Shown here piece by piece: positions 18,192 to 33,390 of a stretch of DNA of 64,000 bases. The translations under genes were made by a program, and so were the position numbers. The notes beneath the pieces were generated by a model. That model made no database searches. It was given only the letters and a program-made list of their open reading frames with translations, and was not told the origin of the DNA. The first letter of the stretch is position 1. Every line of letters starts with the position of its first letter. The DNA is from Ectothiorhodospiraceae bacterium 2226 (GTDB lineage: Bacteria > Pseudomonadota > Gammaproteobacteria > GCA-013348725). The stretch lies in contig CP054689.1 in assembly GCA_013348725.1 (NCBI GenBank), positions 1,166,501 through 1,230,500 on the forward strand, in the 5' to 3' direction.

Positions 18192-19928
18192 ATGCTTAAC
18201 ACCCCAACACGCGGGACCCCCGCCACTGCGCAGGAGGCCCCGGCCCTCCTCGGGCTCACCAAGGTCCCTTCGGGGATCCCCGGCTTCGACGACATCACCG
18301 AAGGCGGTCTGCCACGCGGGCGCACCAGCCTGGTATGTGGTGCCGCCGGCTGTGGCAAGACGCTGTTCGGCATGCAGTTCCTGGTGCGCGGGGCGCTGGA
18401 TCATGACGAACCGGGGGTGTTCATCGCCTTCGAGGAGACCGAACAGGATCTGGTGCAGAACGTCGCCTCCTTGGGCTTCGACCTCAACGCCCTAGTGGAC
18501 GCGGGCAAGCTCGCGATGGACCACATCCGGGTGGAGCGCAACGAGATCGAGGAAAACGGCGAGTACAACCTGGAGGGGCTGTTCCTGCGCCTGGAACTGG
18601 CCATCCAGTCGGTGGGCGCCAAGCGGGTGGTGATCGATACGCTGGAGACGTTGTTCGGCGGTCTGGACAATTACGCCATCTTGCGCTCGGAGCTACGACG
18701 CCTGTTCCAGTGGCTGAAAGATCGCGGCGTGAGCGCCGTCATCACCGCCGAGCGGGGCGAGGGTACGCTTACCCGCCACGGGCTGGAGGAGTACGTCTCG
18801 GACTGCGTGATCCTGCTCGATCATCGCGTCTCGGAGCAGATCTCGACCCGGCGCCTGCGTGTGGTGAAGTACCGCGGCACCACCCACGGCACCAACGAAT
18901 ACCCCTTCCTGATCGACGAGGCCGGCATCACGGTGATGCCCATCACCGCCGCCGGCCTGCACCACGACGTGAGCGACGAGCGCGTCAGCAGCGGCGTGCC
19001 GCGCCTGGACACCATGTTGGGCGGCGAGGGCTATTACCGCGGCAGCACCGTGCTGGTGTCGGGGACGGCGGGCGCCGGCAAGAGCAGCCTGGCGGCGCAC
19101 TTCGCCGACGCCACCTGCGCCCGCGGCGAGCGCTGCATCTACTTCGCCTTCGAAGAATCCCCGCAGCAGATCAAGCGCAACATGCGCTCCATCGGCGTGG
19201 ACCTCGGCGCCCACGAGCAGGCCGGGTTGCTGCGCTTCGTGGCCGCCCGCCCGACCATGCACGGCTTGGAGACCCACCTCGCCGTCATGCACAAGCAAAT
19301 CCGCGACTTCCAGCCTACGGCGGTGGTGGTCGACCCGGTCGGCAACCTGATCGCGGCGGCGAATCAGGAGGAGGCGCACCTGATGGTGGTACGCCTGGTG
19401 GACTTTCTGAAGCTGCACGGCATCACGTCCGTGATGACCAGCCTGACCTCGGGCGGGGCGGCGGCCGAGGCCACCGAGATCGCCATCTCGTCCATCGTCG
19501 ACACCTGGCTGCTGGTCAAAAGCATCGAGGCGAGCGGTGAGCGCAATCGCGGCCTGTACATCCTCAAGTCGCGCGGCATGGCGCACTCGCACCAGGTACG
19601 TGAGTTCGTCATCACCTCGGAGGGTATCGATCTGGTCGATGTCTATATTGGTGCGGAGGGGGTGCTCACCGGCTCGGCGCGCGTACAGCAGGAGAATCGC
19701 GAGCGGGCGGCCGCGGTCCGACGAGCGCAGGAGATCGAGCGCAAGCAGCGCGAGCTCGAGCGTCAGCGCCATGCCATGGAGCACCAGATCGCGGCACTGC
19801 GTGCCGAGTTCGAGGCCCAGGAGGCCGAGATGGCGCGCATCATCGAACAGGAACAAGCGGTCGAAGAGCAGCTGCTTCAGGATCGCAGCGGCATCGCCAG
19901 CCGCCGCGGCGCGGATACTTCTGATTAA
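18192..19928 (+). CDS. kaiC: KaiC-family double-domain ATPase
   Basis: 578 residues with two RecA-like domains. Walker A motifs are CGAAGCGKT (49-57) and SGTAGAGKS (290-298), each followed by the paired catalytic glutamates FAFEE (81-82 and 321-322). In the second domain the stretch TEIAISSIVDT aligns with the phosphorylation loop of cyanobacterial KaiC: Ser431 is kept as Ser433 and Thr432 is replaced by Ser434, while Thr426 is kept as Thr428. A coiled-coil tail (about 500-565) replaces the short cyanobacterial C-terminus. It heads an operon with kaiB, a kaiB-like gene and a kinase; there is no kaiA. It is likely a phosphorylation-state switch or timer. Confidence 0.92.
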   Translation: MLNTPTRGTPATAQEAPALLGLTKVPSGIPGFDDITEGGLPRGRTSLVCGAAGCGKTLFGMQFLVRGALDHDEPGVFIAFEETEQDLVQNVASLGFDLNALVDAGKLAMDHIRVERNEIEENGEYNLEGLFLRLELAIQSVGAKRVVIDTLETLFGGLDNYAILRSELRRLFQWLKDRGVSAVITAERGEGTLTRHGLEEYVSDCVILLDHRVSEQISTRRLRVVKYRGTTHGTNEYPFLIDEAGITVMPITAAGLHHDVSDERVSSGVPRLDTMLGGEGYYRGSTVLVSGTAGAGKSSLAAHFADATCARGERCIYFAFEESPQQIKRNMRSIGVDLGAHEQAGLLRFVAARPTMHGLETHLAVMHKQIRDFQPTAVVVDPVGNLIAAANQEEAHLMVVRLVDFLKLHGITSVMTSLTSGGAAAEATEIAISSIVDTWLLVKSIEASGERNRGLYILKSRGMAHSHQVREFVITSEGIDLVDVYIGAEGVLTGSARVQQENRERAAAVRRAQEIERKQRELERQRHAMEHQIAALRAEFEAQEAEMARIIEQEQAVEEQLLQDRSGIASRRGADTSD

Positions 19929-19961
19929 CCGCCGGAACCGGCGCGAGGAGCAAGTACTCTC

Positions 19962-20279
19962 ATGACGGACGATCGGTCACCGCATAACGGCAGCGACGAT
20001 GTCTGGACCCTTCGATTGTACGTGGCGGGCGAGAACCAGAAGTCGCGCGCGGCGTTCACCAATCTTACGCGGCTGTGCGAGAAGCACCTGGGCACAGGCC
20101 GCTACGAGATCGAGGTCATCGATCTCATGAAGAACCCGCAGTTGGCCAAGGCGGACCAGATCCTGGCCATCCCCACCCTGGTGCGGCGTATCCCCGAACC
20201 CATGAAGCGCGTGATCGGCGACCTGTCCGATGCCGACCGCGCACTGATCGCCCTCGATCTTAGCGCGATCGAGGGGTGA
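19962..20279 (+). CDS. kaiB: KaiB-family protein
   Basis: 105 residues. LRLYVAGENQKSRAAFTNL at the start, IEVIDLMKNPQLAKADQILAIPTLVRR in the middle and KRVIGDLSDADRALIALDL at the end follow cyanobacterial KaiB closely, including the conserved GDLSD turn. KaiB is a thioredoxin-like fold that can switch fold and dock onto the CI ring of KaiC. A short extra N-terminal tail of about 14 residues is present. A GAGGAG lies upstream of the ATG, 33 bases after kaiC. Confidence 0.92.
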   Translation: MTDDRSPHNGSDDVWTLRLYVAGENQKSRAAFTNLTRLCEKHLGTGRYEIEVIDLMKNPQLAKADQILAIPTLVRRIPEPMKRVIGDLSDADRALIALDLSAIEG

Positions 20280-20282
20280 GCG

Positions 20283-20561
20283 ATGAAGGCGACGCAGGCC
20301 CCGGTAGCGCTCGAACTGTTCGTACGCGGCCAGTCTCCTCATTCGCGTGAGGCGATCCAGTTGGTGCGCCGGGTGTGCGAGACGCACATGCCGTTCGGCT
20401 ATTCGTTGGAGGTCATCGACATCGCCACGCAGCCGGAGCGGGTGCGCGCGGCCGGGGTGATGGCGGTGCCGACGCTGGTGCGCCGCCGTCCGGAACCGGT
20501 GCTCAGTACCGTGGGCCGGTTGGATGAGGCACGGGTTCTGGCCGGGCTCGGCCTGCAATGA
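20283..20561 (+). CDS. Second, divergent KaiB-like protein
   Basis: 92 residues. VALELFVRGQSPHSREAI, LEVIDIATQPERVRAAGVMAVPTLVRRRPEPV and a shortened C-terminus STVGRLDEARVLAGLGL show the KaiB thioredoxin-like half. The GDLSD turn and the basic docking residues seen in the first KaiB are lost, so it probably stays in one fold or binds another partner, such as the kinase that follows. It begins 3 bases after kaiB, and its last bases overlap the kinase gene as ATGA, so the two proteins are likely made together. Confidence 0.85.
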   Translation: MKATQAPVALELFVRGQSPHSREAIQLVRRVCETHMPFGYSLEVIDIATQPERVRAAGVMAVPTLVRRRPEPVLSTVGRLDEARVLAGLGLQ

Positions 20562-22207
20562 GGGCACCGGACGGGACAGCGAGCGTGGAGGAGCTGCGCC
20601 GCCGGTTGCGTGAGGCGGACGACACGCTGGATGCGCTTCGGCGCGGGGCGGTGGACGCGGTGGTGGTGGACGGCCCGCACGGCCAGCAGATCTACACCCT
20701 GGAAAGCGCGGACCAGCCGTTTCGCATATTCGTCGAGCGCATGCAGGAAGGCGCCATCACCCTGGACGCCGAGGGCACCCTTCTGTACTGCAACCCCTAC
20801 TTCGCACAACTGCTGCAGCGACCCGCCTCGCAGGTGATGGGCGCGCGGCTCGAGGCGTTCCTCACGGCCGACTCCCACGCGCCGTGTCGCGAAGCGATGC
20901 GGGCAGCCCCCACGCAGCCGAGCCGCGTCGAGTGCCGACTCGCGCCGCGTGCGGGCAAGGCGGTGCTGGTGGAGTTCGCCTTCAGTGTCCTGCCCTCGTC
21001 GGTGACCCTTATCGGGGCCGTGGTCACCGACCTCACGGCGCGCGAGGAGGCCAAGCGCCTCGAGGTGGAACGCAAGGCCGCCGAGGAGGCCAACACCGCA
21101 CGTGACCGCTTCCTCGCCATGATCAGCCACGAACTGCGCACGCCCTTGAATGCCATCACCGGCTGGGTGCAGGTGCTCGGTCTGCGCAAGGATCTGCCCG
21201 AGGCGGCCATGCGGGGGCTGGAGATCATCGAGCGCAGCGGCTGGGCGCAGGCCCAGCTGATCGACGACCTGCTCGACGTGTCGCGCATCCTTGCGGGCAA
21301 GCTACGCCTGGAGACGGCCCCGGTCGACCTGGCCGCGGTTGCCACCGCCGCCATCGCCTCGGCGCAGCCGCAGGCCGACGCCAAGGACATTCGCCTGGTG
21401 CCGCGCCTCGGCGACCACTCGGTAGTGGTGCAGGGCGACGTGGCGCGCCTGCGTCAGATCATCAGCAATCTGGTCGTGAACGCCATCAAATACACGCCCG
21501 AGGGCGGCGAGGTGAGCGTCGAGCTGCGCGAGGACGCGGACGCCGTCGAGGTCGAAGTGGCCGACAACGGCGTCGGCATCGCGCCGAACGACCTTCCGCG
21601 GATGTTCGGCCTGTTCGAGCAGGTCGAGACGGGGACGCGCCGCCGCGGCGGCGGCCTGGGGCTGGGGCTGGCCATCGTCAAGCAACTCGTGGAACTGCAC
21701 GGCGGCGAGGTGCGCCTGCTCAGCGACGGCGAGGGCCGCGGCACCACGGCGCGGGTGCGGCTACCACGGCCCGACAGCGAGGCACCAACGCGCGCTGAGC
21801 GGGAACGCGCTGCCACGGCGCATCTCGACGGCCTAAGGATACTGCTGGTCGAGGACGAGGATCAGGCCCGCGAGACGCTGGCGGAGTGGCTGCGCGGCGC
21901 GCACGCGCGGGTCACGACCGCGGCCACCGCCGACGAGGCGCTACGGGCGGTACAGGGCGACACCTTCGACGTGCTGGTGAGCGACCTCGGCCTGCCCGAT
22001 GTGGACGGCCTGGTGCTCATCGAGCGCATTCGAGCCGCGGGGGTGGACGCGCGTGCGCTACCGGCGCTTGCCCTCACCGCCTATGCGGGCGCGGACTACC
22101 GGCGGCAGGTGCTGGAAGCGGGTTATCAGGCCCATCTGCCCAAGCCGGCGCGCTACGACGCGTTGTGCGGCGCGATTCTCGAACTGGGGAGAAAGGGGGC
22201 CGGATGA
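20558..22207 (+). CDS. PAS hybrid histidine kinase of the kai operon
   Basis: 549 residues, cytosolic. A short coiled coil (10-30) and PAS domain (about 50-165) precede HisKA with His191 in MISHELRTPLNAI, HATPase motifs NLVVNAIKYT, DNGVGIAP and GGGLGLGLAIVKQL, and a C-terminal receiver with DEDQ and the aspartate in VLVSDLGLPDVDG. The N-terminal EELRRRL...DALRRGAVDAVVV segment is a known lead-in of such kinases. Being the last gene of kaiC-kaiB-kaiB2, with an ATGA overlap, it is the likely output: KaiC or a KaiB form may set its activity, as KaiB does for SasA/CikA in cyanobacteria. Confidence 0.9.
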   Translation: MRAPDGTASVEELRRRLREADDTLDALRRGAVDAVVVDGPHGQQIYTLESADQPFRIFVERMQEGAITLDAEGTLLYCNPYFAQLLQRPASQVMGARLEAFLTADSHAPCREAMRAAPTQPSRVECRLAPRAGKAVLVEFAFSVLPSSVTLIGAVVTDLTAREEAKRLEVERKAAEEANTARDRFLAMISHELRTPLNAITGWVQVLGLRKDLPEAAMRGLEIIERSGWAQAQLIDDLLDVSRILAGKLRLETAPVDLAAVATAAIASAQPQADAKDIRLVPRLGDHSVVVQGDVARLRQIISNLVVNAIKYTPEGGEVSVELREDADAVEVEVADNGVGIAPNDLPRMFGLFEQVETGTRRRGGGLGLGLAIVKQLVELHGGEVRLLSDGEGRGTTARVRLPRPDSEAPTRAERERAATAHLDGLRILLVEDEDQARETLAEWLRGAHARVTTAATADEALRAVQGDTFDVLVSDLGLPDVDGLVLIERIRAAGVDARALPALALTAYAGADYRRQVLEAGYQAHLPKPARYDALCGAILELGRKGAG

Positions 22208-22290: not shown

Positions 22291-22737
22291 TCAATGGTGG
22301 TGCGGCAACTGATTCTCGATCAGCCAGTAGAAGCCGGCACGACCGACCACCTCGGCGAACGCGCCGAACTCCACCGGCTTGACGAGATAGCTGTTGGCGC
22401 CGAGCCGATAGGCCTCCTCCAGATCCCGATCCTCGGCCGACGAGGTCAGCACAACCGTCGGCACGCATTTGGTTCGCTCGTCCGCCTTCAGTCGCGCCAG
22501 CAGCTCCAGCCCGGTCACCTTCGGCAGCTTGAGGTCGAGCAACACCAGCACCAGCTTGCCGCGCGGCTTGTGCGCGTAGGGGCCCGTGCCGAACACATAA
22601 TCCAGGGCCTCGGCACCGTCGCGCATCCACACGATGTCGTTGGCGAGGTTGTGCTTGCGCAGCGCGCGCAGCGTCAACTCGCCGTCGTTCGGGTTGTCTT
22701 CCACCAGCAGTACTTCGATACGGCCGCTATCGGGCAT
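22291..22737 (-). CDS. Single-domain response regulator (Rcp1-like)
   Basis: 148 residues, receiver only. VLLVEDNPNDGELTLRAL, the aspartate in VLVLLDLKLPKVTG, TSSAED and a conserved lysine in YLVKPVEF are visible. The C-terminus ends in a run of histidines. This Rcp1-like type pairs with phytochrome-type kinases whose HisKA resembles the one encoded just upstream. The start lies inside the kinase end (11-base overlap). With no output domain it probably acts by protein binding or as a phosphate shuttle. It ends in a small hairpin shared with the converging kai kinase. Confidence 0.88.
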   Translation of the reverse strand: MPDSGRIEVLLVEDNPNDGELTLRALRKHNLANDIVWMRDGAEALDYVFGTGPYAHKPRGKLVLVLLDLKLPKVTGLELLARLKADERTKCVPTVVLTSSAEDRDLEEAYRLGANSYLVKPVEFGAFAEVVGRAGFYWLIENQLPHHH

Positions 22738-24268
22738 CGTCCTCGGCTCCCGTCGGTAAGGCGAAATAGAAGGTCGCGCCCTCGTCGAGCGCTGCTTGGG
22801 CCCAGACGCGACCGCCGTGGCGCACGACGATGCGCTTCACCATGGCGAGCCCCACGCCGGTCCCCGCGAACTCGTCGGGGCGGTGCAGGCGCTGGAACAC
22901 GCCGAACAGCTTGTTCGCATATTGCATATCGAACCCCACCCCATTATCGCTCACAGCGTAGACGGTCTCCCCCTCGGCCTCCTCGGCCCAGATCCGCACC
23001 CGCGGCCGGGGGTTGTGGCCGCTGAACTTCACCGCGTTGCTGATCAGGTTGACCCAGACCTGGCGCAGCAACGCGCGATCGCAGCGCACCGGTGGCAGGT
23101 CGCCCACCTCGATCGGCGGCAGAGTCTCGCCCGGCACGTTGGCCATTTCCTCGATCACCTCGGCCACCAGATCCTGCATGTCCGTCAAACTGGTGCTGAC
23201 CGCGGCGCGGCCGAGGCGCGAGAAGGCCAGCAGATCGTCGATCAGCTGCCCCATGTTACGACAGTTGTCGCGCACCACCTTGATCAGCCGCCCCGCCTCC
23301 GCGTCGAGCTGCGGGCCGTATTCGTCGGCCAGGATGCGCGAGAAGCCATCGATGGCGCGCAGCGGCGAGCGCAGGTCGTGCGACACCGAGTAACTGAAAC
23401 CTTCGAGCTCCGCGTTGGCTGCCTCCAGCTGCGCCGTGCGCGCCGCCACGCGCTGCTCGAGCTCGGCATTCAGGGCACGCACCGCGGCCTCGGCGCGGCG
23501 ACGTTCGGCGATCTCGCGCTCGAGTTCCTGGTGGCGCTGTTCGAGCTCGCCGTAGGCGCGGCGCAGGGCATCGTCCTGATCGTGGATCTGCGCGAGCATC
23601 TGATTGAGCGCGTCGGTCAGCAGCCCGATCTCGTCCGAGGCGTGCTTGCGCGCCCGTAGGGTGTAGTCCTGGCGCTCGGTCACCGCACGGGCGACGCCCG
23701 CGAGGTCCAATACCGGCCGCGAAATGGCGCGCTGGAACACCATCGCCAGGAGAAGGCTCAGCAGCAGCACGCTGGCGAACAGACCCGCGACGATCAGGGC
23801 GTAACGGCGCAGCAGTTCGTCCAGCGGCGAGACGTCGGCGCGCAGGTACACCGTGCCGACGCGCTCGGTGCCGTGACCGATGTCGTGATAAAGCTCGAGC
23901 GCACCATCGACGAAGCGCTGGCGGGGACCGTCCGGATTGGCCGGGATCGGCGACTCTCGACGGCGCTGGTAGGTGGCGAACAGTTCACCGTCGGCGGTGT
24001 ACAGCGCGCCGCTGATGACGATGGAACGCGCCGACAGCGCCTGCAGATTCTCGGTGGCGGCGTCGGCGTCGGCGAACTGCAGCGCCGCGCGCGAGTTCAC
24101 GCCGATCAGCTGTGCGATCCCGCGCAGGTCGGCGGCCATACGATCGCGCGCGGTGCTCGCCTCGTAGCCGATGATGGTCATCGCCGCAGCGACCAAGGTG
24201 AGGCTGCTCACCAGCAGGATGATGCCGGTGAGTTTGAGGCGGATGGGCAGGTCCCGGAGTCTCGGCAT
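22727..24268 (-). CDS. Membrane histidine kinase with CHASE8-like periplasmic domain
   Basis: 513 residues. Transmembrane helices at about 8-30 and 155-178 enclose a periplasmic CHASE8-type domain with ARDRMAADLRGIAQLIGVNSRAALQF, the domain also found in the cyclase YfiN. A HAMP domain and coiled coil follow (180-285). HisKA has FSYSVSHDLRSPLRAIDGF, and the HATPase has DNGVGFDMQYANKLFGVFQRLH and GTGVGLAMVKRIV, the phytochrome-kinase type. The ATG overlaps the upstream yfiR stop as TGATG. In known systems YfiR represses a CHASE8 diguanylate cyclase; here the same input domain drives a kinase and the adjacent receiver. Confidence 0.9.
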   Translation of the reverse strand: MPRLRDLPIRLKLTGIILLVSSLTLVAAAMTIIGYEASTARDRMAADLRGIAQLIGVNSRAALQFADADAATENLQALSARSIVISGALYTADGELFATYQRRRESPIPANPDGPRQRFVDGALELYHDIGHGTERVGTVYLRADVSPLDELLRRYALIVAGLFASVLLLSLLLAMVFQRAISRPVLDLAGVARAVTERQDYTLRARKHASDEIGLLTDALNQMLAQIHDQDDALRRAYGELEQRHQELEREIAERRRAEAAVRALNAELEQRVAARTAQLEAANAELEGFSYSVSHDLRSPLRAIDGFSRILADEYGPQLDAEAGRLIKVVRDNCRNMGQLIDDLLAFSRLGRAAVSTSLTDMQDLVAEVIEEMANVPGETLPPIEVGDLPPVRCDRALLRQVWVNLISNAVKFSGHNPRPRVRIWAEEAEGETVYAVSDNGVGFDMQYANKLFGVFQRLHRPDEFAGTGVGLAMVKRIVVRHGGRVWAQAALDEGATFYFALPTGAEDDAR

Positions 24269-24816
24269 CACTGCACCACCCTGGCCAAGTCAAGCAGCCG
24301 CGAGCTGATGCGCAGTCCCGCGCGCTCGGCCGCGGTCTGATTGATGGTCAAGCGCACGCGGTCGTTCTCGACCCGGAAGGCAACCACGCCGCCCTCGGCC
24401 GCAAACGCCTCGTGGTCGCCCACCGTCAGCACCGGCCAGTCCTGCAGGCGCGCGAGATCGCGCTGCTCCGCCGCGCGCTGCGCATGGCGCACGAACACGA
24501 TGTGGCAGCTACGGGCCGCGTCGGCACTGCCGATCCGCTGCACCCGCACCGGACGCCCGTTGGCGCGGCGCACGGCGACCAGCTCATCCAGCATGGCGCC
24601 GAACGGATCTTCACCGAGCAGGCAAATACCCACGACCGGCGCGGACTCGGCGCGCGCATCGTGCGGCCACTCGACGTAATCGGTGAAATGCAGCAGGAAG
24701 GCGGCCTTGATCTCGTACTCCGAGGCTACCGACTGTGCCTGCGCGGCGCCGCTCACGCCCAGGGTCGCCAGCAGCATCACCCACGCGCACCCCGTGAGCC
24801 CGACGAACAAGCGCAT
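24268..24816 (-). CDS. YfiR-family periplasmic protein (DUF4154), copy 1
   Basis: 182 residues. A signal peptide ends near AAQAQS, then YEIKAAFLLHFTDYVEWP, the YfiR family opening. GICLLGEDPFG, SCHIVFVRHAQ, and the C-terminal GGVVAFRVENDRVRLTINQTAAERAGLRISSRLLDLARV are also typical. In Pseudomonas YfiR is a periplasmic inhibitor of a CHASE8 cyclase. Overlap with the CHASE8 kinase gene downstream makes that kinase the likely partner. A GTG three codons upstream (24825) is an alternative start. The TonB receptor gene ends 9-18 bases upstream. Confidence 0.88.
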   Translation of the reverse strand: MRLFVGLTGCAWVMLLATLGVSGAAQAQSVASEYEIKAAFLLHFTDYVEWPHDARAESAPVVGICLLGEDPFGAMLDELVAVRRANGRPVRVQRIGSADAARSCHIVFVRHAQRAAEQRDLARLQDWPVLTVGDHEAFAAEGGVVAFRVENDRVRLTINQTAAERAGLRISSRLLDLARVVQ

Positions 24817-24834
24817 TGCCCGCACCCCGCCCCC

Positions 24835-26829
24835 TCAGAACCGCTGCTCGAGGCGCAGGTAGCCAGCGCGCTCGAACTCGATCTCGGGATCGAACTCGCT
24901 ATGCGGCGACCCGAGCAGGTTGCGTCCGACCAGGCTGAGGGAGAGGTCCGGCCGCGCCTGCCAGTTGATGCGCAGGTCGGCGGTGGTGTAGCTAGGCACG
25001 CCGCGCCCCGGCAGGGCATCGACATAGCGCAGTGCGCCGGCCAACTGCAGCCGCGGGCTGAGGTCAAAGCGCGGGCGCAGGCTGAGCTGGTGACGCGGGC
25101 TTGCGCCCTCGGCCGCCTCCGCCGTTGCGACCGTGCCGGGCTCGGCCTCGAGCTGCAGACGGAAGTAGGTATAGGCGAGATCGAACCCCAGGCGCGGGCT
25201 CGCCTGCCAGCGCGTCGCCAGCTCGAGCCCGTAGGACTCGCCTGCCATCGCGTTGTCGAGGCGCGAGGGCAGTACCGCGTGCGGCGGCGCGGGGTCGGTC
25301 TCGACGTAGGGCGCCTCGGCGCGCCAGGTAACGAGCTCGCGGTAGTCGTGATAGAAGACGGTCGCGTCCACGTGCAGGCTGCGCGTGGGCGAGACCCGGT
25401 AGCCGAGCTCGTAGGCCGTCAGGCGCTCGGCGTCCAGCGCGCGACTGCCGAGCAGCCGCGCCACCGTCGGCTCGTCGGGATCGCCCGGTTGGGTGAGGTT
25501 GATGATGACGTCGCGCTCACCGCGGCTCGGCACGCGCGACGCGCGCGACACGGCGCCCCACAGCGTCTGGTGCGGGGCCGGCGACCAAGCCAGGCGCACT
25601 GAGGGCTGCGGCTCGGCGCCCGTGTAATCGTGGTACTCGAGCTTGGCGCCCAGCGTCAGACTCAGCGTCTCGCGCAGCGCGATGGTGTCCTGTACGAACG
25701 CGCTGTAGACGTTGGTGCTGTCACGCGTGGGCTGGAAGTCGACCAGGTAGGTCGACTCGAAGCGGTCGCGGATATGGCGGTAACCCAGCCCCCACACCAG
25801 ATCGTGGCGATCGTCGAGGCGGTAGTGGTGCTGAAAATCGAGGTCGTAGGTGGCGACCTGCTCGCGGGTGAACAGCGGATGGGCCTCGTACCAATCGGCG
25901 TAGGCCTGCACCGTCACGTCGCCCCGCTCTCCCTGCGGACGGCTCCAGCGCCCGAGCAGGTGGCCGCCGCGGGTGGTCATATCGTGGCGGCGCGGGATCG
26001 GATCGGCGGGCGACTCGGGCGGAAAGATGCGGCTCACCTCACCGTCGTACGCCTCGCCCTGCAGGGTGTAGCGGTGCCGCTCCGGGGTGGTCCAGTCCGC
26101 GCGCGCGCCGACACGCCCCTGCGACCAGTCGTCCTCGGCGCTGCCGCCGGCCGCCAGACGGGCCGCGTCGGCGTCGCGGAACTTGGCGAACGCGCGATAG
26201 CTGCCGCGCTCGCCGAGCGCGTCGCCCCAGCGGGCGCCCGCGACCCGCTCCTCCGTGCCGCCGATCAGGCCCACGAAGCCGCCCTCGGTCTCCCGCGCGT
26301 CCTTGGTGATGATGTTGATGACGCCGTTCACGGCATTGGCGCCCCACTGCGTGGCGCCCGGCCCGCGGATGACCTCGATACGCTCGATGTCCTCCAACAG
26401 GGTGTCCTGGGCGCTCCAGTTCACGCCTCCGTGCACGGGCGTGTAGACGCTGCGGCCGTCGATCAGGACCAGCAGCTTGTTCGAGTACTCACCGGCAAAG
26501 CCACGCGCGCTGATGGACCAGCGGTTGCTGCCGATGCGCGCGACATGCAGCCCCGGGATGTCGCGCAGGAGTTCGGGAATGCTGGTCGCACCCGAGCGGC
26601 GGATGTCCTCCGCAGTCAACACGATGGCAGCGGCAGCACTGGTCGCCAGCGGCTCGGCACGGCGCGAGGCGGTGGTGACCTGCACCTCCGCGAGCTGCTC
26701 GATGCTCAGGTCGAGCAGGCGCGGGGCGGCAGCGACGCTCATCGGCATCAGCGACATCATCACGAGCGCCCGGGAGAGCGCCCGTGGCGATGGGGGCGCC
26801 GAGCGGCGGGCATGCTGGTGCATCATCAT
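24835..26829 (-). CDS. TonB-dependent outer-membrane receptor, copy 1
   Basis: 664 residues. A signal region is followed by LLDLSIEQLAEVQVTTASRRAEPL, a plug domain with RRSGATSIPELLRDIPGLHVARIGSNRWSISARGF and VIRGPGATQWGANAVNGVINIITK, then a long beta barrel ending in LEQRF, the C-terminal phenylalanine used for outer-membrane insertion. Three ATG codons in a row begin the gene; the first forms an ATGA overlap with the upstream yfiR stop. The plug type is the one that repeatedly neighbours yfiR-like genes. The ligand is unknown, and nothing points to a siderophore. Confidence 0.88.
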   Translation of the reverse strand: MMMHQHARRSAPPSPRALSRALVMMSLMPMSVAAAPRLLDLSIEQLAEVQVTTASRRAEPLATSAAAAIVLTAEDIRRSGATSIPELLRDIPGLHVARIGSNRWSISARGFAGEYSNKLLVLIDGRSVYTPVHGGVNWSAQDTLLEDIERIEVIRGPGATQWGANAVNGVINIITKDARETEGGFVGLIGGTEERVAGARWGDALGERGSYRAFAKFRDADAARLAAGGSAEDDWSQGRVGARADWTTPERHRYTLQGEAYDGEVSRIFPPESPADPIPRRHDMTTRGGHLLGRWSRPQGERGDVTVQAYADWYEAHPLFTREQVATYDLDFQHHYRLDDRHDLVWGLGYRHIRDRFESTYLVDFQPTRDSTNVYSAFVQDTIALRETLSLTLGAKLEYHDYTGAEPQPSVRLAWSPAPHQTLWGAVSRASRVPSRGERDVIINLTQPGDPDEPTVARLLGSRALDAERLTAYELGYRVSPTRSLHVDATVFYHDYRELVTWRAEAPYVETDPAPPHAVLPSRLDNAMAGESYGLELATRWQASPRLGFDLAYTYFRLQLEAEPGTVATAEAAEGASPRHQLSLRPRFDLSPRLQLAGALRYVDALPGRGVPSYTTADLRINWQARPDLSLSLVGRNLLGSPHSEFDPEIEFERAGYLRLEQRF

Positions 26830-27563
26830 CCTATTTGGCGAATACCGTCCTTGATCCCGCAGCGGGTGCCGCGGCGGCCGCCTACCATAGCGTCCGCGCC
26901 GCCCGGTTGCCAACTCGGCAGCGCCGGCCGCCGTGCGATGCAGTTCCCGGTGGCGGCGGCGAGACGCCCGCCCTCCTCATAGCCACAGGGCCCGCGGCCG
27001 CTCTCGCCCACCACGCGCGCGATCCCGAGCAGACGCGAGCTGATGCGCAGTTCGCGCTGCTGGGCCGCGCCCACGTTCACCGTCAGGCGGACGCGCTCGT
27101 GCTCGACGCGGAAGGCGATCACGCCCCCGTCGAGCGCGAACGGTTCGCCCTCGCCCACGGTCAGCACCGGACCGGAGCCCAAACGCTGCAGATCGCGCCG
27201 GAGCGCCTTCTCATCGCGGTGTCCGAGGTACACGATCTGACAGCCGCGCGCTTGTTCGGCCGAACGCGGACGCTCGATTACCACCGCGCGGCTGCCCGCG
27301 GCGGCGAGCTCATCCAGCACGCCGCCGAAGGGATCGTGGCCCAGCACACACACGCGCATCGGCACAGGGACCGGCGCCGGCCATTCGACGTAGTCGGCGA
27401 ACTGCAGCAGGAAGGCCGCCTTCAGCTCGTACTCGCTCGCGCCGGAGCGCGCCACGGCACTGCCCGCCACGGCCGCCAGCAGCAACGCAAGCAGGCCGCG
27501 CGCGCACCAGCGGCGCCCAAGGGCGAGCATGGCCATCCGGCGGCTGCGTGTGACGCCGCGCAT
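26826..27563 (-). CDS. YfiR-family periplasmic protein, copy 2, with C-terminal extension
   Basis: 245 residues. Signal peptide with the segment LLALLLAAVAGSAVA, then YELKAAFLLQFADYVEWP, RVCVLGHDPFG, CQIVYLGHRDE and GVIAFRVEHERVRLTVN, ending the family core at SSRLLGIARVV (about residue 187). Some 58 extra residues, rich in Gly, Arg and Cys, follow and have no counterpart in copy 1. The extension runs to an ATGA overlap with the next receptor gene, so it may be a real coupling device or the result of a lost stop codon. The start overlaps the upstream receptor stop as TGATG. Confidence 0.83.
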   Translation of the reverse strand: MRGVTRSRRMAMLALGRRWCARGLLALLLAAVAGSAVARSGASEYELKAAFLLQFADYVEWPAPVPVPMRVCVLGHDPFGGVLDELAAAGSRAVVIERPRSAEQARGCQIVYLGHRDEKALRRDLQRLGSGPVLTVGEGEPFALDGGVIAFRVEHERVRLTVNVGAAQQRELRISSRLLGIARVVGESGRGPCGYEEGGRLAAATGNCIARRPALPSWQPGGADAMVGGRRGTRCGIKDGIRQIG

Positions 27564-29497
27564 CAGAAGCGCCGCTCCGCGGTGAGGTAGACCGAACGCT
27601 CGACGCGATTGGCCTCGGTGAATTCGGCGTGGTCGCCGTTCAGGAGGTTCTGGCCGACCAGGTCGATGGACAACAGCGGGCGCGGCCGCCAGCCGACGCG
27701 CAGGTCGAGCTCGGTGTAGCTGGCCACCGCGCGTGGCGCGGTATGCCCCGGCACGTTATCCACGTAGCGCAGCCAGGCATCGAGCTGCACGCGCTCGGTG
27801 AGGTCGTAGCGCGAGAACAGGCTGATAGTCTGCTCGGGATAGTTGTCCCCGTGCCCCGCCGAGCGGGGTTCCATATCGGGCGCCGCCGTTGCCCGCAGGT
27901 CGAGGTAGGCGTAGGCGAGGTCCAGGCGCCAGTCGGGACGCGCCTGCCAGCGGAGCGCGAGTTCCAGGCCGTTGGCGGTCGCCTCCACACCGTTGGTGTA
28001 TTCGAACTGTTCCGGTGCGAACGCGCGGTCGCCGATGATGCGGTCGTACTCGTTGTGGAACACCGTGGCGTCCAGAAACAGTCCCGGTACCGGTGCCACG
28101 CGATAGCCCAGCTCGTAGGCCCAGAGCCGCTCGGCCCGCAGCGCGTCGCCACCGCCGCGAAGTGTGCCCAGCCCCTGGACGACGGCATGGATGTCGCGCT
28201 CGCCGCGGCTGGGGATGCGCACCGCACGCGAAACCGCAGCCCACACCGTATGGCGGGTGTTCGGGACCCAGGCGACGCGCGTCGAGGGCTGGAACTCCCA
28301 GCCGGTGTAATCGTTGTGCTCCAGCTTGCTGCCGAGCGTCCACTCCAGCGCGTCGGTGAGCCGCACCGTGTCCTGCAGGAAGCCGCTGTAGGTGTCCACG
28401 TCGCGGCGATCGGGCACCATGTCGATGCCCGGGCTGCCGTCGAAGCGGTCGCGGATGTGGCGGTAACCCAGCCCCCACACCAGGTGGTGGCGCTCGGCGA
28501 GCCGATAGGTTTGATGGAAGTCGAGGTCGACGGTCAGCACCTGCTCGCGCATCAACAGCGGGTCGGCCTCGTACCAGTCGACGTAGGTCTGCAACTCGTA
28601 GCGACTGTCGTCGCTCTGCTCGCGGGTCCAGCGGCCGAGTAGGTTGGCGCCGCGGTTCTCCACCTCGTGCTGGGGCTGCAACGGCTCGGGGATGAGGGCG
28701 CGCGTGGGCTGACTGCGGTCCTCGGCGGTCTGGTACACGTCGCCCTGCAGGGTGAAGCCGTCGCGCGCGTCGGGACCCCAGTCGGCGCGGAAGCCGGCAC
28801 GCCCCTGCCACCAGTCGTCGCCCCGGCCGGCGCCGGTGCGGTCCACCAGTTCGTCGTAGTCGCGATACTTACCGTAGGCGCGGTAATGGCCGTGCTCGCC
28901 GAGTTCCCCGCCCCAGCGCGCCACGGCGGTGTCATGCGCGGTGCCGACGATACCCTTGGCCAGCCCGCCCTGAGTGGCCGCGGCGGGTTTGGTGATGATG
29001 TTGATGATGCCGTTCACCGCGTTGGCGCCCCATTGCGTGGCGCCGGGGCCGCGGATCACCTCGATGCGGTCGATGTCCGCCAGCACGGTATCCACCGCCT
29101 CCCAGTTCACGCCCGAGTGCACCGGGGTGTAGACGCTGCGCCCGTCGATCTGCACCAGCATCTTGTTGGAGAACTGACCTTGGAAGCCGCGCGCGCTGAT
29201 CGCCCAGGTGCGGCTGTTGATGCGCGCGACCTGCAGCCCCGGTACCAGCCGCAGTGCCTCGGGAATGCTGGTGGCGCCGGAGCGGCGAATGTCCTCGGCA
29301 TTGAGCACGAATACCGCCGCCGCACTGCCCGCCAGCGGCTCGGGGCGGCGCGACACGGTGGTAATCGGGATGTCGGACAACTCTTCGATACTGAGCTCGA
29401 GCAGGCGCGCGCTCTGCGCGCTGACCGCCAAAGGGCTCAGCGCGAACAGCAGGACGGCACCGCGCGTTGCGCCGCGCTGGATTAGGGCGTGGGTCAT
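27563..29497 (-). CDS. TonB-dependent outer-membrane receptor, copy 2
   Basis: 644 residues, colinear with copy 1. A signal peptide ends near AVSAQS, then LLELSIEELSDIPITTVSRRPEPL, plug motifs RRSGATSIPEALRLVPGLQVARINSRTWAISARGF and the same GPGATQWGANAVNGIINIITK. A barrel follows, ending TAERRF. The start at 29497 gives a clean signal peptide; an ATG 10 codons earlier adds charged residues. It is the first gene of the six-gene overlapping block, 113 bases after the receiver-PAS-kinase gene. The two copies have diverged across the barrel, so they may bind different ligands while feeding one kinase. Confidence 0.88.
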   Translation of the reverse strand: MTHALIQRGATRGAVLLFALSPLAVSAQSARLLELSIEELSDIPITTVSRRPEPLAGSAAAVFVLNAEDIRRSGATSIPEALRLVPGLQVARINSRTWAISARGFQGQFSNKMLVQIDGRSVYTPVHSGVNWEAVDTVLADIDRIEVIRGPGATQWGANAVNGIINIITKPAAATQGGLAKGIVGTAHDTAVARWGGELGEHGHYRAYGKYRDYDELVDRTGAGRGDDWWQGRAGFRADWGPDARDGFTLQGDVYQTAEDRSQPTRALIPEPLQPQHEVENRGANLLGRWTREQSDDSRYELQTYVDWYEADPLLMREQVLTVDLDFHQTYRLAERHHLVWGLGYRHIRDRFDGSPGIDMVPDRRDVDTYSGFLQDTVRLTDALEWTLGSKLEHNDYTGWEFQPSTRVAWVPNTRHTVWAAVSRAVRIPSRGERDIHAVVQGLGTLRGGGDALRAERLWAYELGYRVAPVPGLFLDATVFHNEYDRIIGDRAFAPEQFEYTNGVEATANGLELALRWQARPDWRLDLAYAYLDLRATAAPDMEPRSAGHGDNYPEQTISLFSRYDLTERVQLDAWLRYVDNVPGHTAPRAVASYTELDLRVGWRPRPLLSIDLVGQNLLNGDHAEFTEANRVERSVYLTAERRF

Positions 29498-29610: not shown

Positions 29611-31617
29611 TCAGTCGCCCGTGCGCGCCACGCGCGTACCGCCGTGGTGCCGCCCGCCCGGCTGCAGGTCGCGCGCATCGCGCGGCAGGGTGACCGTAAA
29701 GGTGGTGCCACGGCCCGGGGCGCTGTCCACCGTCACGTAGCCGCCATGCGACTCGGTAGCACCGCGCACCAGGGTCAGGCCGATGCCCCAGCCGCGTTTC
29801 TCGTGCGAGCGGGCCGGCTCGCGCCGGAAAGGCTCGAACAGCACCGCCTGGATCTCGGGGTCGATGGGCTCGCCCTCGTTGTGTACGTGCAGGCGCACCT
29901 CTTCGTAACCACCCTCGGCCGTCACCACCACCGGCGCAACGGGGTCGCCGTACTTAACGGCGTTGTTGAGCAGATTCTCGATGATGCGGCGTAGCAGGTG
30001 CGGATCCCAGAAACCCTCCAACTCATCGGTGGTCTCCAGGCGGTAACGGTCGCCGTGCACCGTGGTGAGGTCGTCGATGACCTCGCGCACGATGCGCCGC
30101 AGGGCGCACGGCTGCACCTGCAGCGGCAACCGCTCGCCGGCGCGCACCAGGTTGGCGTCCAGCAGGGTCTGCAGCATGCCGTCCAAGCGGTCGATGTTCT
30201 CGATGATACGCCCCTGGAGCATGGGCACGGTGCTGTGGGTGGGTGCACGGCGCGCCAGCAGCTCGGCGCTCATGCGCGCCGCCATCAGCGGCGTGCGCAG
30301 GTCGTGCGAGAGCGTGGAGACGAACATCTCGCGCAGTTCCCGCTCGCGCTTGAGCAGCTCGATGGACTCGCGCAGCGAGCTCTCGATGCCCTTGAGATGT
30401 CCGATGTCCTGACAGAGCAGCACCGCCACCGGCGCGTGGCCGTAGGTAGCGGGAAGCATCTCGGAATAGAAGTTCATGTGGAAGGTGCCGGCGCGCGTGT
30501 GCCACACGGCTTCCTCGCCGCCGAGGCGCTCGCCCCGCGCCGCGCGGGCGAGGGGTATGTTCTCGGCCGGCACCGGCTTGCCCGCGGTGTCGGTGAAGGT
30601 GAACACCTGCGTCGCCACCGCATCCACCGGCTCTTTGGGAATCGGCGCGCCGTACACGCGATCGGCCGCCTTGTTGGAGAACAGCATGCGCCCGGCGCCC
30701 GGCTCCACCATGATGATGGGCAGCGGCAGCAAGTCGAGCACCATCTCCAGCCAACGCTGCTGGCGCTCCACCGCCTCGCGCGCGTTGCGCAGCAGGTCCT
30801 CGGTCTCCTTGCGGGCGGTGATGTCGCGCGAGGTGCCCGCCACCGCGACGACCTGGCCGTGGGGGTCGAACACCGGCGCGAGGTAATACTCGTAGTGGCT
30901 GCTGCGCCCCGCCGTGTTGGTGTAGCCGAGCTCGCTGCGCACGACGCTGCCCTTGAGGGCGTCATCGATCTCCGCGGTCAGCTTGCGCACCAGCTCGTCC
31001 GGCTGTCCGAGCTCCGCGTAGGTCTTGCCCACCGCCTCGTCCAGGGATTTACCCCACAGTTCGAGCAGCGCGCGGTTGGCGTAGGTCAGGCGGTGATCGG
31101 TGTCGAACAGGTAGAGGAGATCGGGCACCGACGAGAGCAGCGTGTCGAACATGGTCGCCTGGCGCTCCATGCGCTGGGCGAGTTCGCGATAGCTCGCCTC
31201 GCGTTCGCGCAGGGCCTGCTCGGCGCGCGCCTTCTCCTCGTGGTCGCGCTTCTGCTCCAGAGCGCGTACCACCGCCTGGCCGAGGCGCGCCATGCGGTCC
31301 TTCTGCAGATAGTCGGTGACGCCCTGCTTCATCAGCGACACGGCGAGTTCCTCGCCGATCGCGCCCGACACGATGATGAAGGGGATCTGCAGCCCCCGCT
31401 CCTGCACGATCTGCAAGGCACGAGCGCCATCGAATTGCGGGAGCTGGTAATCGGCGAGGATCAGGTCGAAATCGGGCGAGAGCGCCGCGACGAAGTCCTC
31501 CTCCGACCAGACGCGCGTCCAATCGGGCTCGAAGCCCGCACGTTTGAGCGCGTAGACCTCCAGCTCCGCATCCGTGGGCGTGTCCTCGAGTATCAGCACT
31601 CGCAGCGGTATACCCAT
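29611..31617 (-). CDS. Receiver-PAS-PAS histidine kinase
   Basis: 668 residues, cytosolic. An N-terminal receiver (LRVLILEDTPTDAE, aspartate in LILADYQLPQFDG) is followed by a coiled coil, PAS domains at about 165-290 and 300-420, HisKA with STLSHDLRTPLMAARMS, and an HATPase with NLLNNAVKYG and GWGIGLTLVRGA. A receiver at the front lets another kinase control this one. It sits upstream of the receptor-YfiR operon on the same strand, so the membrane kinase could phosphorylate it, or the reverse. The start at 31617 gives a standard receiver opening. Confidence 0.88.
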   Translation of the reverse strand: MGIPLRVLILEDTPTDAELEVYALKRAGFEPDWTRVWSEEDFVAALSPDFDLILADYQLPQFDGARALQIVQERGLQIPFIIVSGAIGEELAVSLMKQGVTDYLQKDRMARLGQAVVRALEQKRDHEEKARAEQALREREASYRELAQRMERQATMFDTLLSSVPDLLYLFDTDHRLTYANRALLELWGKSLDEAVGKTYAELGQPDELVRKLTAEIDDALKGSVVRSELGYTNTAGRSSHYEYYLAPVFDPHGQVVAVAGTSRDITARKETEDLLRNAREAVERQQRWLEMVLDLLPLPIIMVEPGAGRMLFSNKAADRVYGAPIPKEPVDAVATQVFTFTDTAGKPVPAENIPLARAARGERLGGEEAVWHTRAGTFHMNFYSEMLPATYGHAPVAVLLCQDIGHLKGIESSLRESIELLKRERELREMFVSTLSHDLRTPLMAARMSAELLARRAPTHSTVPMLQGRIIENIDRLDGMLQTLLDANLVRAGERLPLQVQPCALRRIVREVIDDLTTVHGDRYRLETTDELEGFWDPHLLRRIIENLLNNAVKYGDPVAPVVVTAEGGYEEVRLHVHNEGEPIDPEIQAVLFEPFRREPARSHEKRGWGIGLTLVRGATESHGGYVTVDSAPGRGTTFTVTLPRDARDLQPGGRHHGGTRVARTGD

Positions 31618-32031: not shown

Positions 32032-33390
32032 TCAGTCGACCGATTCGCGGAAGATCTCGGGGCGCTCCTCACCCTCGGCGTACAGGAAACCCACCAGGCC
32101 GCGCTCGAGGCGCGACAGCGAGTGATCGACCAGGATGTAGCGTCCCGGCACGTCCAGGGTGAACTCCACCACGGATGAACCGCCCGCCGGCACCAGCGTG
32201 GTCTGCACGTCGGTAAGCGGCGGCGCGGTCAGCGAGCCCTGATCGTACACGCGCTCGAAGATCTCGCCGATCACGTGGAAGGAGGACACGAGGTTCGGGC
32301 CGCCCACGCCGAAATAGATGCGCACCCGCTCGCCCACCCTGGCGCGCATCGGGAACTGGTCCGTCAGGGCATCGACCGCGCCGTTGAAGACCACGTACTC
32401 CGGGCGCTCGTCGAGCAGCTTTTGCACGCTGAACTCCTGCGCGCCGCGCTGACCATAAGGGCGCTCGGTATAGAGCTCGCCCTGCATGACGTAAAACTCG
32501 CGATCCACCGGCTCCAGGCCCTCCTCGGGCTCGACCAGGATCAGGCCGTACATCCCGTTGGTAATGTGGTGCGCGACCATGGGCGTGGCGCAGTGGTAGA
32601 CGTACAGGCCGGGGCGCAGGGCCTTGAAGGTGAAGCCCTTGGTCTCCCCGGGCAGCGCCTGGGTGGCCTCGGCCCCGCCGCCGGGACCGGTCACCGAGTG
32701 CAGGTCGATGGAGTGGATGTGCATACTGTCCGCGGCGTTCTTCATCACCACCTCGACGGTATCGCCCTGGCGCACGCGCACGAACGGCCCCGGCACCTTG
32801 CCGTCGAAGGTCCAAAAGCGGTAGCTGGTGCCGTCGGCGAGATGGCCCTCGAGCTCCACCGTCTCGAGTTCCACGCGCACGGTCTCGGGCGCGCGCCGGG
32901 TGAGCGGCGGCGGCACGTTGGCCGGATCTTGCGAGATACTGGGCGCGGCGGCCTCGGCCTCGGCGGCGTCCCCCACTACCAGCAGCCCTTCCATGCCGGC
33001 CGCCTGGTGGCCCGGCAGGGTGCAGATATAGGTGAAACTGCCCTCGTCGCGCGCGCGAAACGACACCGCCGTGCTCGAGCCGCGCGCCGTGATGATCTCG
33101 GACTGGACCTTCAGTTCCGGCACTGCGATGTCGTGCTGCACGCCGTCGCTGTTGACCAGCGTGATCTGCACCACCGCCCCCGGCTGCACGCGCAGCTCGG
33201 GATTCACCACTCCGTCGATCGCGCCGCCGATGCCGCGAAACACCATGCGACCCTCGGCCAGCGTGGTCTCGAGGGTGAAGCGCACGTCGGGGGTGTACTC
33301 CGCCGGCCTTCGTTCCTCCGCCTGCGCGAAGCCGCTGGCGAGGAGAACGAGAACGGCGAATAGCCGCGTGTACAGGCCGACGTGTTGCAT
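32032..33390 (-). CDS. nirK: Copper nitrite reductase NirK with extra N-terminal cupredoxin domain
   Basis: 452 residues. After a signal peptide, an added cupredoxin (about 35-140) carries its own type 1 copper set: His86, Cys123, His128 and Met133. The NirK core follows, of the AniA class. Type 1 ligands are His226, Cys267, His275 and Met280; type 2 ligands are His231, His266 and His423; catalytic Asp229 and His372 (SFHVIGEIF) are present. It reduces nitrite to nitric oxide in the periplasm as a trimer. The extra domain probably takes electrons from the donor, as in the Hyphomicrobium enzyme. No nor or other denitrification gene is nearby. Confidence 0.9.
   Translation of the reverse strand: MQHVGLYTRLFAVLVLLASGFAQAEERRPAEYTPDVRFTLETTLAEGRMVFRGIGGAIDGVVNPELRVQPGAVVQITLVNSDGVQHDIAVPELKVQSEIITARGSSTAVSFRARDEGSFTYICTLPGHQAAGMEGLLVVGDAAEAEAAAPSISQDPANVPPPLTRRAPETVRVELETVELEGHLADGTSYRFWTFDGKVPGPFVRVRQGDTVEVVMKNAADSMHIHSIDLHSVTGPGGGAEATQALPGETKGFTFKALRPGLYVYHCATPMVAHHITNGMYGLILVEPEEGLEPVDREFYVMQGELYTERPYGQRGAQEFSVQKLLDERPEYVVFNGAVDALTDQFPMRARVGERVRIYFGVGGPNLVSSFHVIGEIFERVYDQGSLTAPPLTDVQTTLVPAGGSSVVEFTLDVPGRYILVDHSLSRLERGLVGFLYAEGEERPEIFRESVD

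Follow-up and report, generated by a model that had tools for sequence, protein, structure and literature searches.

The window analysed here is a 64,000-nucleotide stretch of Ectothiorhodospiraceae bacterium 2226 (contig CP054689.1, positions 1,166,501 to 1,230,500), in which a run of six genes reads on the minus strand from 29497 to 22291: receptor, YfiR, receptor, YfiR, CHASE8 histidine kinase and receiver. The run begins with a TonB-dependent receptor of the TOL_0244 family (TBDR1, 27563..29497), followed by a periplasmic YfiR-like protein with a hydrophobic N-terminal segment (YfiR1, 26826..27563), a second receptor paralogous to the first (TBDR2, 24835..26826, with an ATG start at 26826 and a TTG open reading frame (ORF) that extends to 26913) and a second periplasmic YfiR-like protein, of the TOL_0243 family (YfiR2, 24268..24825). 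Next comes a sensor histidine kinase (22727..24271) with two transmembrane segments and CHASE8, HAMP, HisKA and HATPase domains. The last gene encodes a single-domain receiver of 148 aa (22291..22737), in which Pfam finds Response_reg alone and no output domain. Just upstream on the same strand, a gap of 113 bases from TBDR1, lies a REC-PAS-PAS-HisKA-HATPase protein (29611..31617; Pfam). The six genes, their order and their domains had been proposed in a first-pass annotation made from the sequence alone; Pfam recovers them in that place with high significance, including the two-component parts HisKA, HATPase and receiver, and agrees that kinase and receiver carry no DNA-binding domain. The same annotation counted four short overlaps, one of 11 bases and one gap, which is one junction too many, as six genes have five. 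TBDR1/YfiR1 and YfiR1/TBDR2 each overlap by 1 base, as read from the sequence; TBDR2 and YfiR2 are 9 bases apart with a GTG start or 18 with an ATG start; YfiR2 and the kinase overlap by 4 bases (GTG) or 1 base (ATG), and kinase and receiver by 11. Across the 2.96-Mb genome there are exactly two DUF4154 genes, both within this run, and four TonB plug domains, of which TBDR1 and TBDR2 provide two; TonB_C proteins are also encoded.

Both receptors contain a TonB plug and barrel (Pfam) and pass the cut-off of 645 bits for NF053590 (TOL_0244 receptor), TBDR1 with 681 bits and TBDR2 with 652.6. An AlphaFold model of TBDR1 (pLDDT 78.5; residues 1-40 of low confidence) places the plug inside the barrel and is closest to the colicin I receptor Cir, the best PDB match (TM-score 0.80), and to BtuB. 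The predicted shape is thus that of a transporter, and the model does not give the ligand. An N-terminal receptor motif, LSLEEL...VTSVSK, was considered as a YfiR-specific contact and rejected as non-discriminating, being present also in receptors that have no YfiR neighbour.

The YfiR-like proteins match DUF4154/YfiR in Pfam (E 6e-37 for YfiR1 and 4e-43 for YfiR2) and also match PDB YfiR by sequence. Against NF053591 (TOL_0243 YfiR-like; cut-off 125), YfiR2 scores 154.5 bits and YfiR1 121.3, slightly below. YfiR1 has a tail of about 57 residues past the domain (26826-26997, minus strand) that is not found in YfiR2; it reads as far as the start of TBDR2 and may be a former intergenic region. 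An AlphaFold model of YfiR2 (pLDDT 93.1) returned YfiR structures as its top 15 PDB fold matches, that of Pseudomonas aeruginosa being first (TM-score 0.75), with a substrate-binding protein next.

The CHASE8 domain of the kinase is recognized by Pfam (E 5e-16) and has no significant match among PDB sequences, while the kinase as a whole belongs to NF053592 ('HK, YfiR-like protein-associated'; 213.9 bits against a cut-off of 194). In YfiN of P. aeruginosa, activating mutations fall, among other sites, on A66, A67, V68 and F70 of an AAVVF motif, which was proposed as the YfiR-binding site and for which compensating changes occur in the C-terminus of YfiR (PMC3375315). The motif AALQF of the window kinase aligns with AAVVF and has a Phe equivalent to F70, a residue of YfiN that YfiR requires. 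This Phe is kept in all 72 aligned CHASE8 domains of the receptor loci described below, and in 86 of 88 CHASE8 domains that have a YfiR gene within 4 kb versus 5 of 24 that do not (Fisher 6e-15). The genome's second CHASE8 protein (L192) has no adjoining YfiR, and in it the Phe is absent.

An alignment of 14 receptors, searched against 84,980 species genomes, yielded 80 loci, in which YfiR, CHASE8 and kinase neighbours were called with purpose-made hidden Markov models. These loci were picked by likeness to receptors from an NCBI family that was perhaps itself defined with gene context, and the triad frequencies are therefore not those of a random sample of receptors. Of the 76 loci whose downstream sequence is long enough, 54 have a YfiR gene directly after the receptor and 64 have one within 4 kb, and the next gene after YfiR encodes a CHASE8 protein in 48 of the 53 loci with an adjoining YfiR and enough flank. 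The 49 CHASE8 neighbours found over all 80 loci comprise 31 hybrid kinases, 14 plain kinases and four ORFs with no kinase call, the last being a GGDEF-EAL protein (L169) and contig-end or split frames. Receptor-YfiR-CHASE8 triads occur in 11 named phyla, the labels being those of the records, many of which are metagenome-assembled genomes. The cassette for which the first-pass annotation proposed a survey of genomes, with a TonB plug beside DUF4154 and CHASE8-HisKA, is thus found again, and its presence in dozens of distant genomes puts the arrangement far beyond chance. Of the 185 genomes sampled from the class, 15 have a strong family receptor (at least 400 bits) and each of these also has a family YfiR, compared with 10 among the 170 that remain (Fisher 8e-16). 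Class is the only rank that the window genome has in common with its 55 sampled relatives.

Several loci deviate from the common pattern. At L185:662-5520 (G152) and L169:1953-6866 the order is receptor, YfiR and CHASE8-GGDEF-EAL, the same input with a cyclic di-GMP (c-di-GMP) output; the periplasmic input is thus constant while the output is swapped. A single chain encoded at L173:4412-7132 (minus strand) joins a signal peptide, YfiR, a coiled coil, a transmembrane segment, PAS, HisKA, HATPase and REC, without CHASE8, so that YfiR and a kinase are joined in a natural fusion. At L139:2414-3775, one ORF holds two stretches that match the YfiR profile and is followed by separate CHASE8 and HK-REC ORFs. 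Two genomes of one family, G031 and G176, carry an enlarged YfiR network, with nine and five TOL_0243-type YfiR copies, respectively, and three receptors apiece.

On the output side, the window receiver is 49-58% identical to receivers found directly 3' of CHASE8 kinases at five loci, and the kinase core and receiver both have close matches there: L106 (Limisphaerales), L109 (Verrucomicrobiales), L153 and L172 (Bacteroidota) and L159 (Acidobacteriota). In all five a non-hybrid CHASE8 kinase precedes a receiver of 150-176 aa. The best match of the upstream REC-PAS-PAS-kinase is a REC-PAS-HK gene beside the kinase-receiver pair of L106, and another lies in L153. Its suggested role as a partner of the pathway is supported by these homologues, and it is likely to act as an output partner or as a second acceptor of the phosphoryl group. 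Other triads (L098, L137, L138 and L143) have a REC-GGDEF neighbour, which points to c-di-GMP as a common output elsewhere; the window genome itself encodes 28 GGDEF domains. L196:2-4630 (minus strand) encodes a CHASE8 kinase without YfiR but with a receiver closely homologous to that of the window (57%) and a REC-GGDEF protein; the REC domain of the latter and that of the window's upstream REC-PAS-kinase share 54% identity.

That the receptor and YfiR genes are duplicated, as had been claimed, is borne out by their trees. TBDR1 and TBDR2 are 54% identical and are sisters in a tree of 108 rows (SH-aLRT 100), and YfiR1 and YfiR2 are each other's closest relatives in the YfiR tree (SH-aLRT 99). 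A separate duplication of its own has produced the same order, receptor-YfiR-receptor-YfiR-hybrid kinase, at L125 (Geobacteraceae), and further paired receptor and YfiR copies occur at L123 and L135; at L116, L127 and L131 one YfiR is common to two receptors. Judged from these relationships, receptor and YfiR were copied together as a pair, both here and in other lineages. Comparison of distance matrices over 45 triads (Mantel test, 999 permutations) gave correlations of 0.47 for YfiR and CHASE8, 0.35 for receptor and YfiR and 0.33 for receptor and CHASE8, all with p 0.001. Kinase core distances correlated with none of the three, and YfiR and CHASE8 gave a partial correlation of 0.46 once the kinase core was controlled for. 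By this measure receptor, YfiR and CHASE8 evolve together, and the kinase core does not follow.

We consider it probable that the six genes encode a trans-envelope two-component pathway running from receptor to YfiR, CHASE8 kinase and receiver. The parts, order, recurrence, motif, co-variation and co-duplication are read from the sequence, and from them we infer each physical contact, the sign of regulation, the ligand and phosphotransfer. A ligand would engage the TonB-dependent receptor in the outer membrane, and the state of the receptor, together with TonB energy, would alter the availability or state of the partner YfiR in the periplasm. The C-terminal hydrophobic face of YfiR is predicted to dock at the exposed AALQF Phe in the kinase's CHASE8 domain and, once docked, would hold the kinase in one signalling state, most likely off by analogy with YfiN. 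A change in docking would then pass via the second transmembrane segment and HAMP into the kinase, which would phosphorylate the stand-alone receiver and probably also the REC domain of the upstream REC-PAS-PAS-kinase. The duplicated receptor-YfiR pair would place two inputs onto this one kinase, and it is possible that two ligands feed it.

A number of observations weigh against such a pathway. Neither receptor has an STN or other signalling domain recognised by Pfam. The association of the Phe with YfiR has only one supported independent pair and, because such contrasts are few, it may reflect a single clade. Co-variation, moreover, can arise among operon-mates without contact. A family receptor is missing in 10 of the 25 genomes of the class sample that have a family YfiR, so that the receptor is not obligatory, and at several receptor loci YfiR is present with no adjoining CHASE8 kinase. 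The first-pass annotation had taken receptor and yfiR genes without the kinase in relatives as a sign against the cascade; the picture is mixed, as no YfiR is present at 12 of the 80 receptor loci despite 2 kb or more of downstream sequence, whereas every sampled genome with a strong receptor also has a family YfiR.

The receptors could instead be importers of a compound that binds YfiR, the ligand-loaded protein then signalling via CHASE8 with no need for contact between receptor and YfiR. We regard this as rather unlikely but worth weighing, given that the receptors resemble ordinary transporters, with Cir and BtuB as the closest and no signalling domain, and that the fold of YfiR2 also matches a substrate-binding protein of Rhodothermus marinus (5z6v, Foldseek E 7e-07). 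P. aeruginosa YfiR does bind vitamin B6 or L-Trp weakly, in the pocket that binds YfiB, but the reported affinities are tens of millimolar (PMC4887326). The neighbourhoods of the triads revealed no gene for an inner-membrane transporter, though only signalling and receptor families were searched there. The duplication of receptor and YfiR as a unit fits a specific pairing, but it would also follow from a common specificity for the ligand.

Two further explanations concern the YfiR cysteines and the duplication. In one, YfiR would be a redox sensor that controls the kinase through a pair of the Cys71-Cys110 type, with the receptors as regulated cargo and not as sensors. Cysteines aligned with Cys71 and Cys110 are present in both window YfiRs, and the equivalent disulfide of YfiR is redox-responsive (PMC4655355); yet both are kept in just 46 of 86 YfiR family members, the structural Cys145-Cys152 pair is absent and the kinase and receiver lack a DNA-binding domain with which to regulate receptors, all of which leaves this account improbable. 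The chances are similarly slim that one receptor-YfiR pair is redundant, either decaying or kept for dosage, and that a single input matters. The tail of YfiR1, its score slightly below the family cut-off and the long branches of the copies would fit such a fate, but all four frames are intact, both receptors exceed their own cut-off and the duplication of the unit is recurrent.

The YfiR-kinase half of the pathway that we favour has precedents. Malone et al. (2012) reported several outputs in place of GGDEF among distant Yfi systems, namely GGDEF-EAL, HPT and sensor histidine kinases, with YfiB missing from nearly all such systems and the contact residues conserved; in Thauera MZ1T they noted two YfiRs alongside a single hybrid kinase. 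TonB is not mentioned in that paper (PMC3375315). Within the open-access literature, to which our search extended, no description of a TonB receptor feeding YfiR was found. The window genes match all three of the NCBIfam models NF053590, NF053591 and NF053592, with YfiR1 slightly under the cut-off, and because models exist for all three parts, curators had already noticed the association; the names of the families state no mechanism. Compared with these families, the receptor-YfiR pair is doubled here and a non-hybrid kinase is followed by a separate receiver. The first-pass annotation's wiring of receptor, YfiR, CHASE8 kinase and outputs gains good comparative support from gene order in 11 phyla, the Phe, co-variation, the fusion and the neighbouring homologues, while its claim of an undescribed system does not hold for the whole, as the coupling of YfiR to kinases was already in Malone et al. 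and the parts have NCBIfam models. The YfiR-kinase half was known in silico, and the receptor half was catalogued by NCBIfam but, to the extent of our search, functionally undescribed. Of the new points, the most useful are the Phe signature, the co-evolution of the periplasmic half, in which the kinase core takes no part, the duplications in pairs and the natural fusion.

With the YfiBNR system, or the YfiR-YfiN[PAS] core, the present one shares a periplasmic YfiR, a CHASE8 domain with an AAxxF motif, HAMP and an outer-membrane input. It differs in its outer-membrane partner, a TonB-dependent receptor in place of the PAL lipoprotein YfiB (no gene for a YfiB PAL-type outer-membrane lipoprotein is among the six), in an output that runs from a HisKA-HATPase kinase to a receiver and not through GGDEF, and in a YfiR that has equivalents of Cys71-Cys110 only, where YfiBNR has two conserved cysteine pairs. 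In FecA-FecR-FecI, an outer-membrane TonB receptor acts through a periplasmic intermediary on an inner-membrane protein, and a TonB receptor is likewise proposed here to signal across the periplasm to an inner-membrane protein; however, the six genes include no STN, no FecR and no sigma factor, and the target is a kinase. HmsCDE of Yersinia and other YfiR-type c-di-GMP systems also use a periplasmic regulator of the YfiR/HmsC family to control an inner-membrane signalling protein, but with a c-di-GMP output, and we know of no TonB receptor in them.

Two other features lie near the six genes. On the plus strand (18192-22207) is a compact set of genes for KaiC, two KaiB proteins in succession and a PAS-HK-REC protein, convergent with the 3' end of the receiver gene; a conserved link to these Kai genes was considered and rejected, as the related loci searched contain neither KaiC nor KaiB. 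A multicopper protein with cupredoxin domains, similar to copper nitrite reductase, is encoded on the minus strand (32032-33390), upstream of the signalling genes.

To our knowledge, few routes lead from the occupancy of an outer-membrane receptor to an inner-membrane kinase, and the only inputs of YfiBNR that we know to have been found so far are envelope and redox. On balance, and by a narrower margin of confidence than for the pathway at this locus, we lean towards the view that at least 11 phyla share TonB receptor-YfiR-CHASE8 as a general outer-membrane-to-kinase route, that the receptor replaces YfiB in it as the controller of YfiR, that the periplasmic part is one evolving unit set on interchangeable kinase or GGDEF-EAL outputs, and that one kinase gains further inputs as receptor-YfiR pairs multiply. 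The matched receptor-YfiR pairs provide a genetically simple system in which it can be tested. If it is true, a widespread route from the outer membrane to a kinase exists, and YfiR would gain a ligand-gated input.

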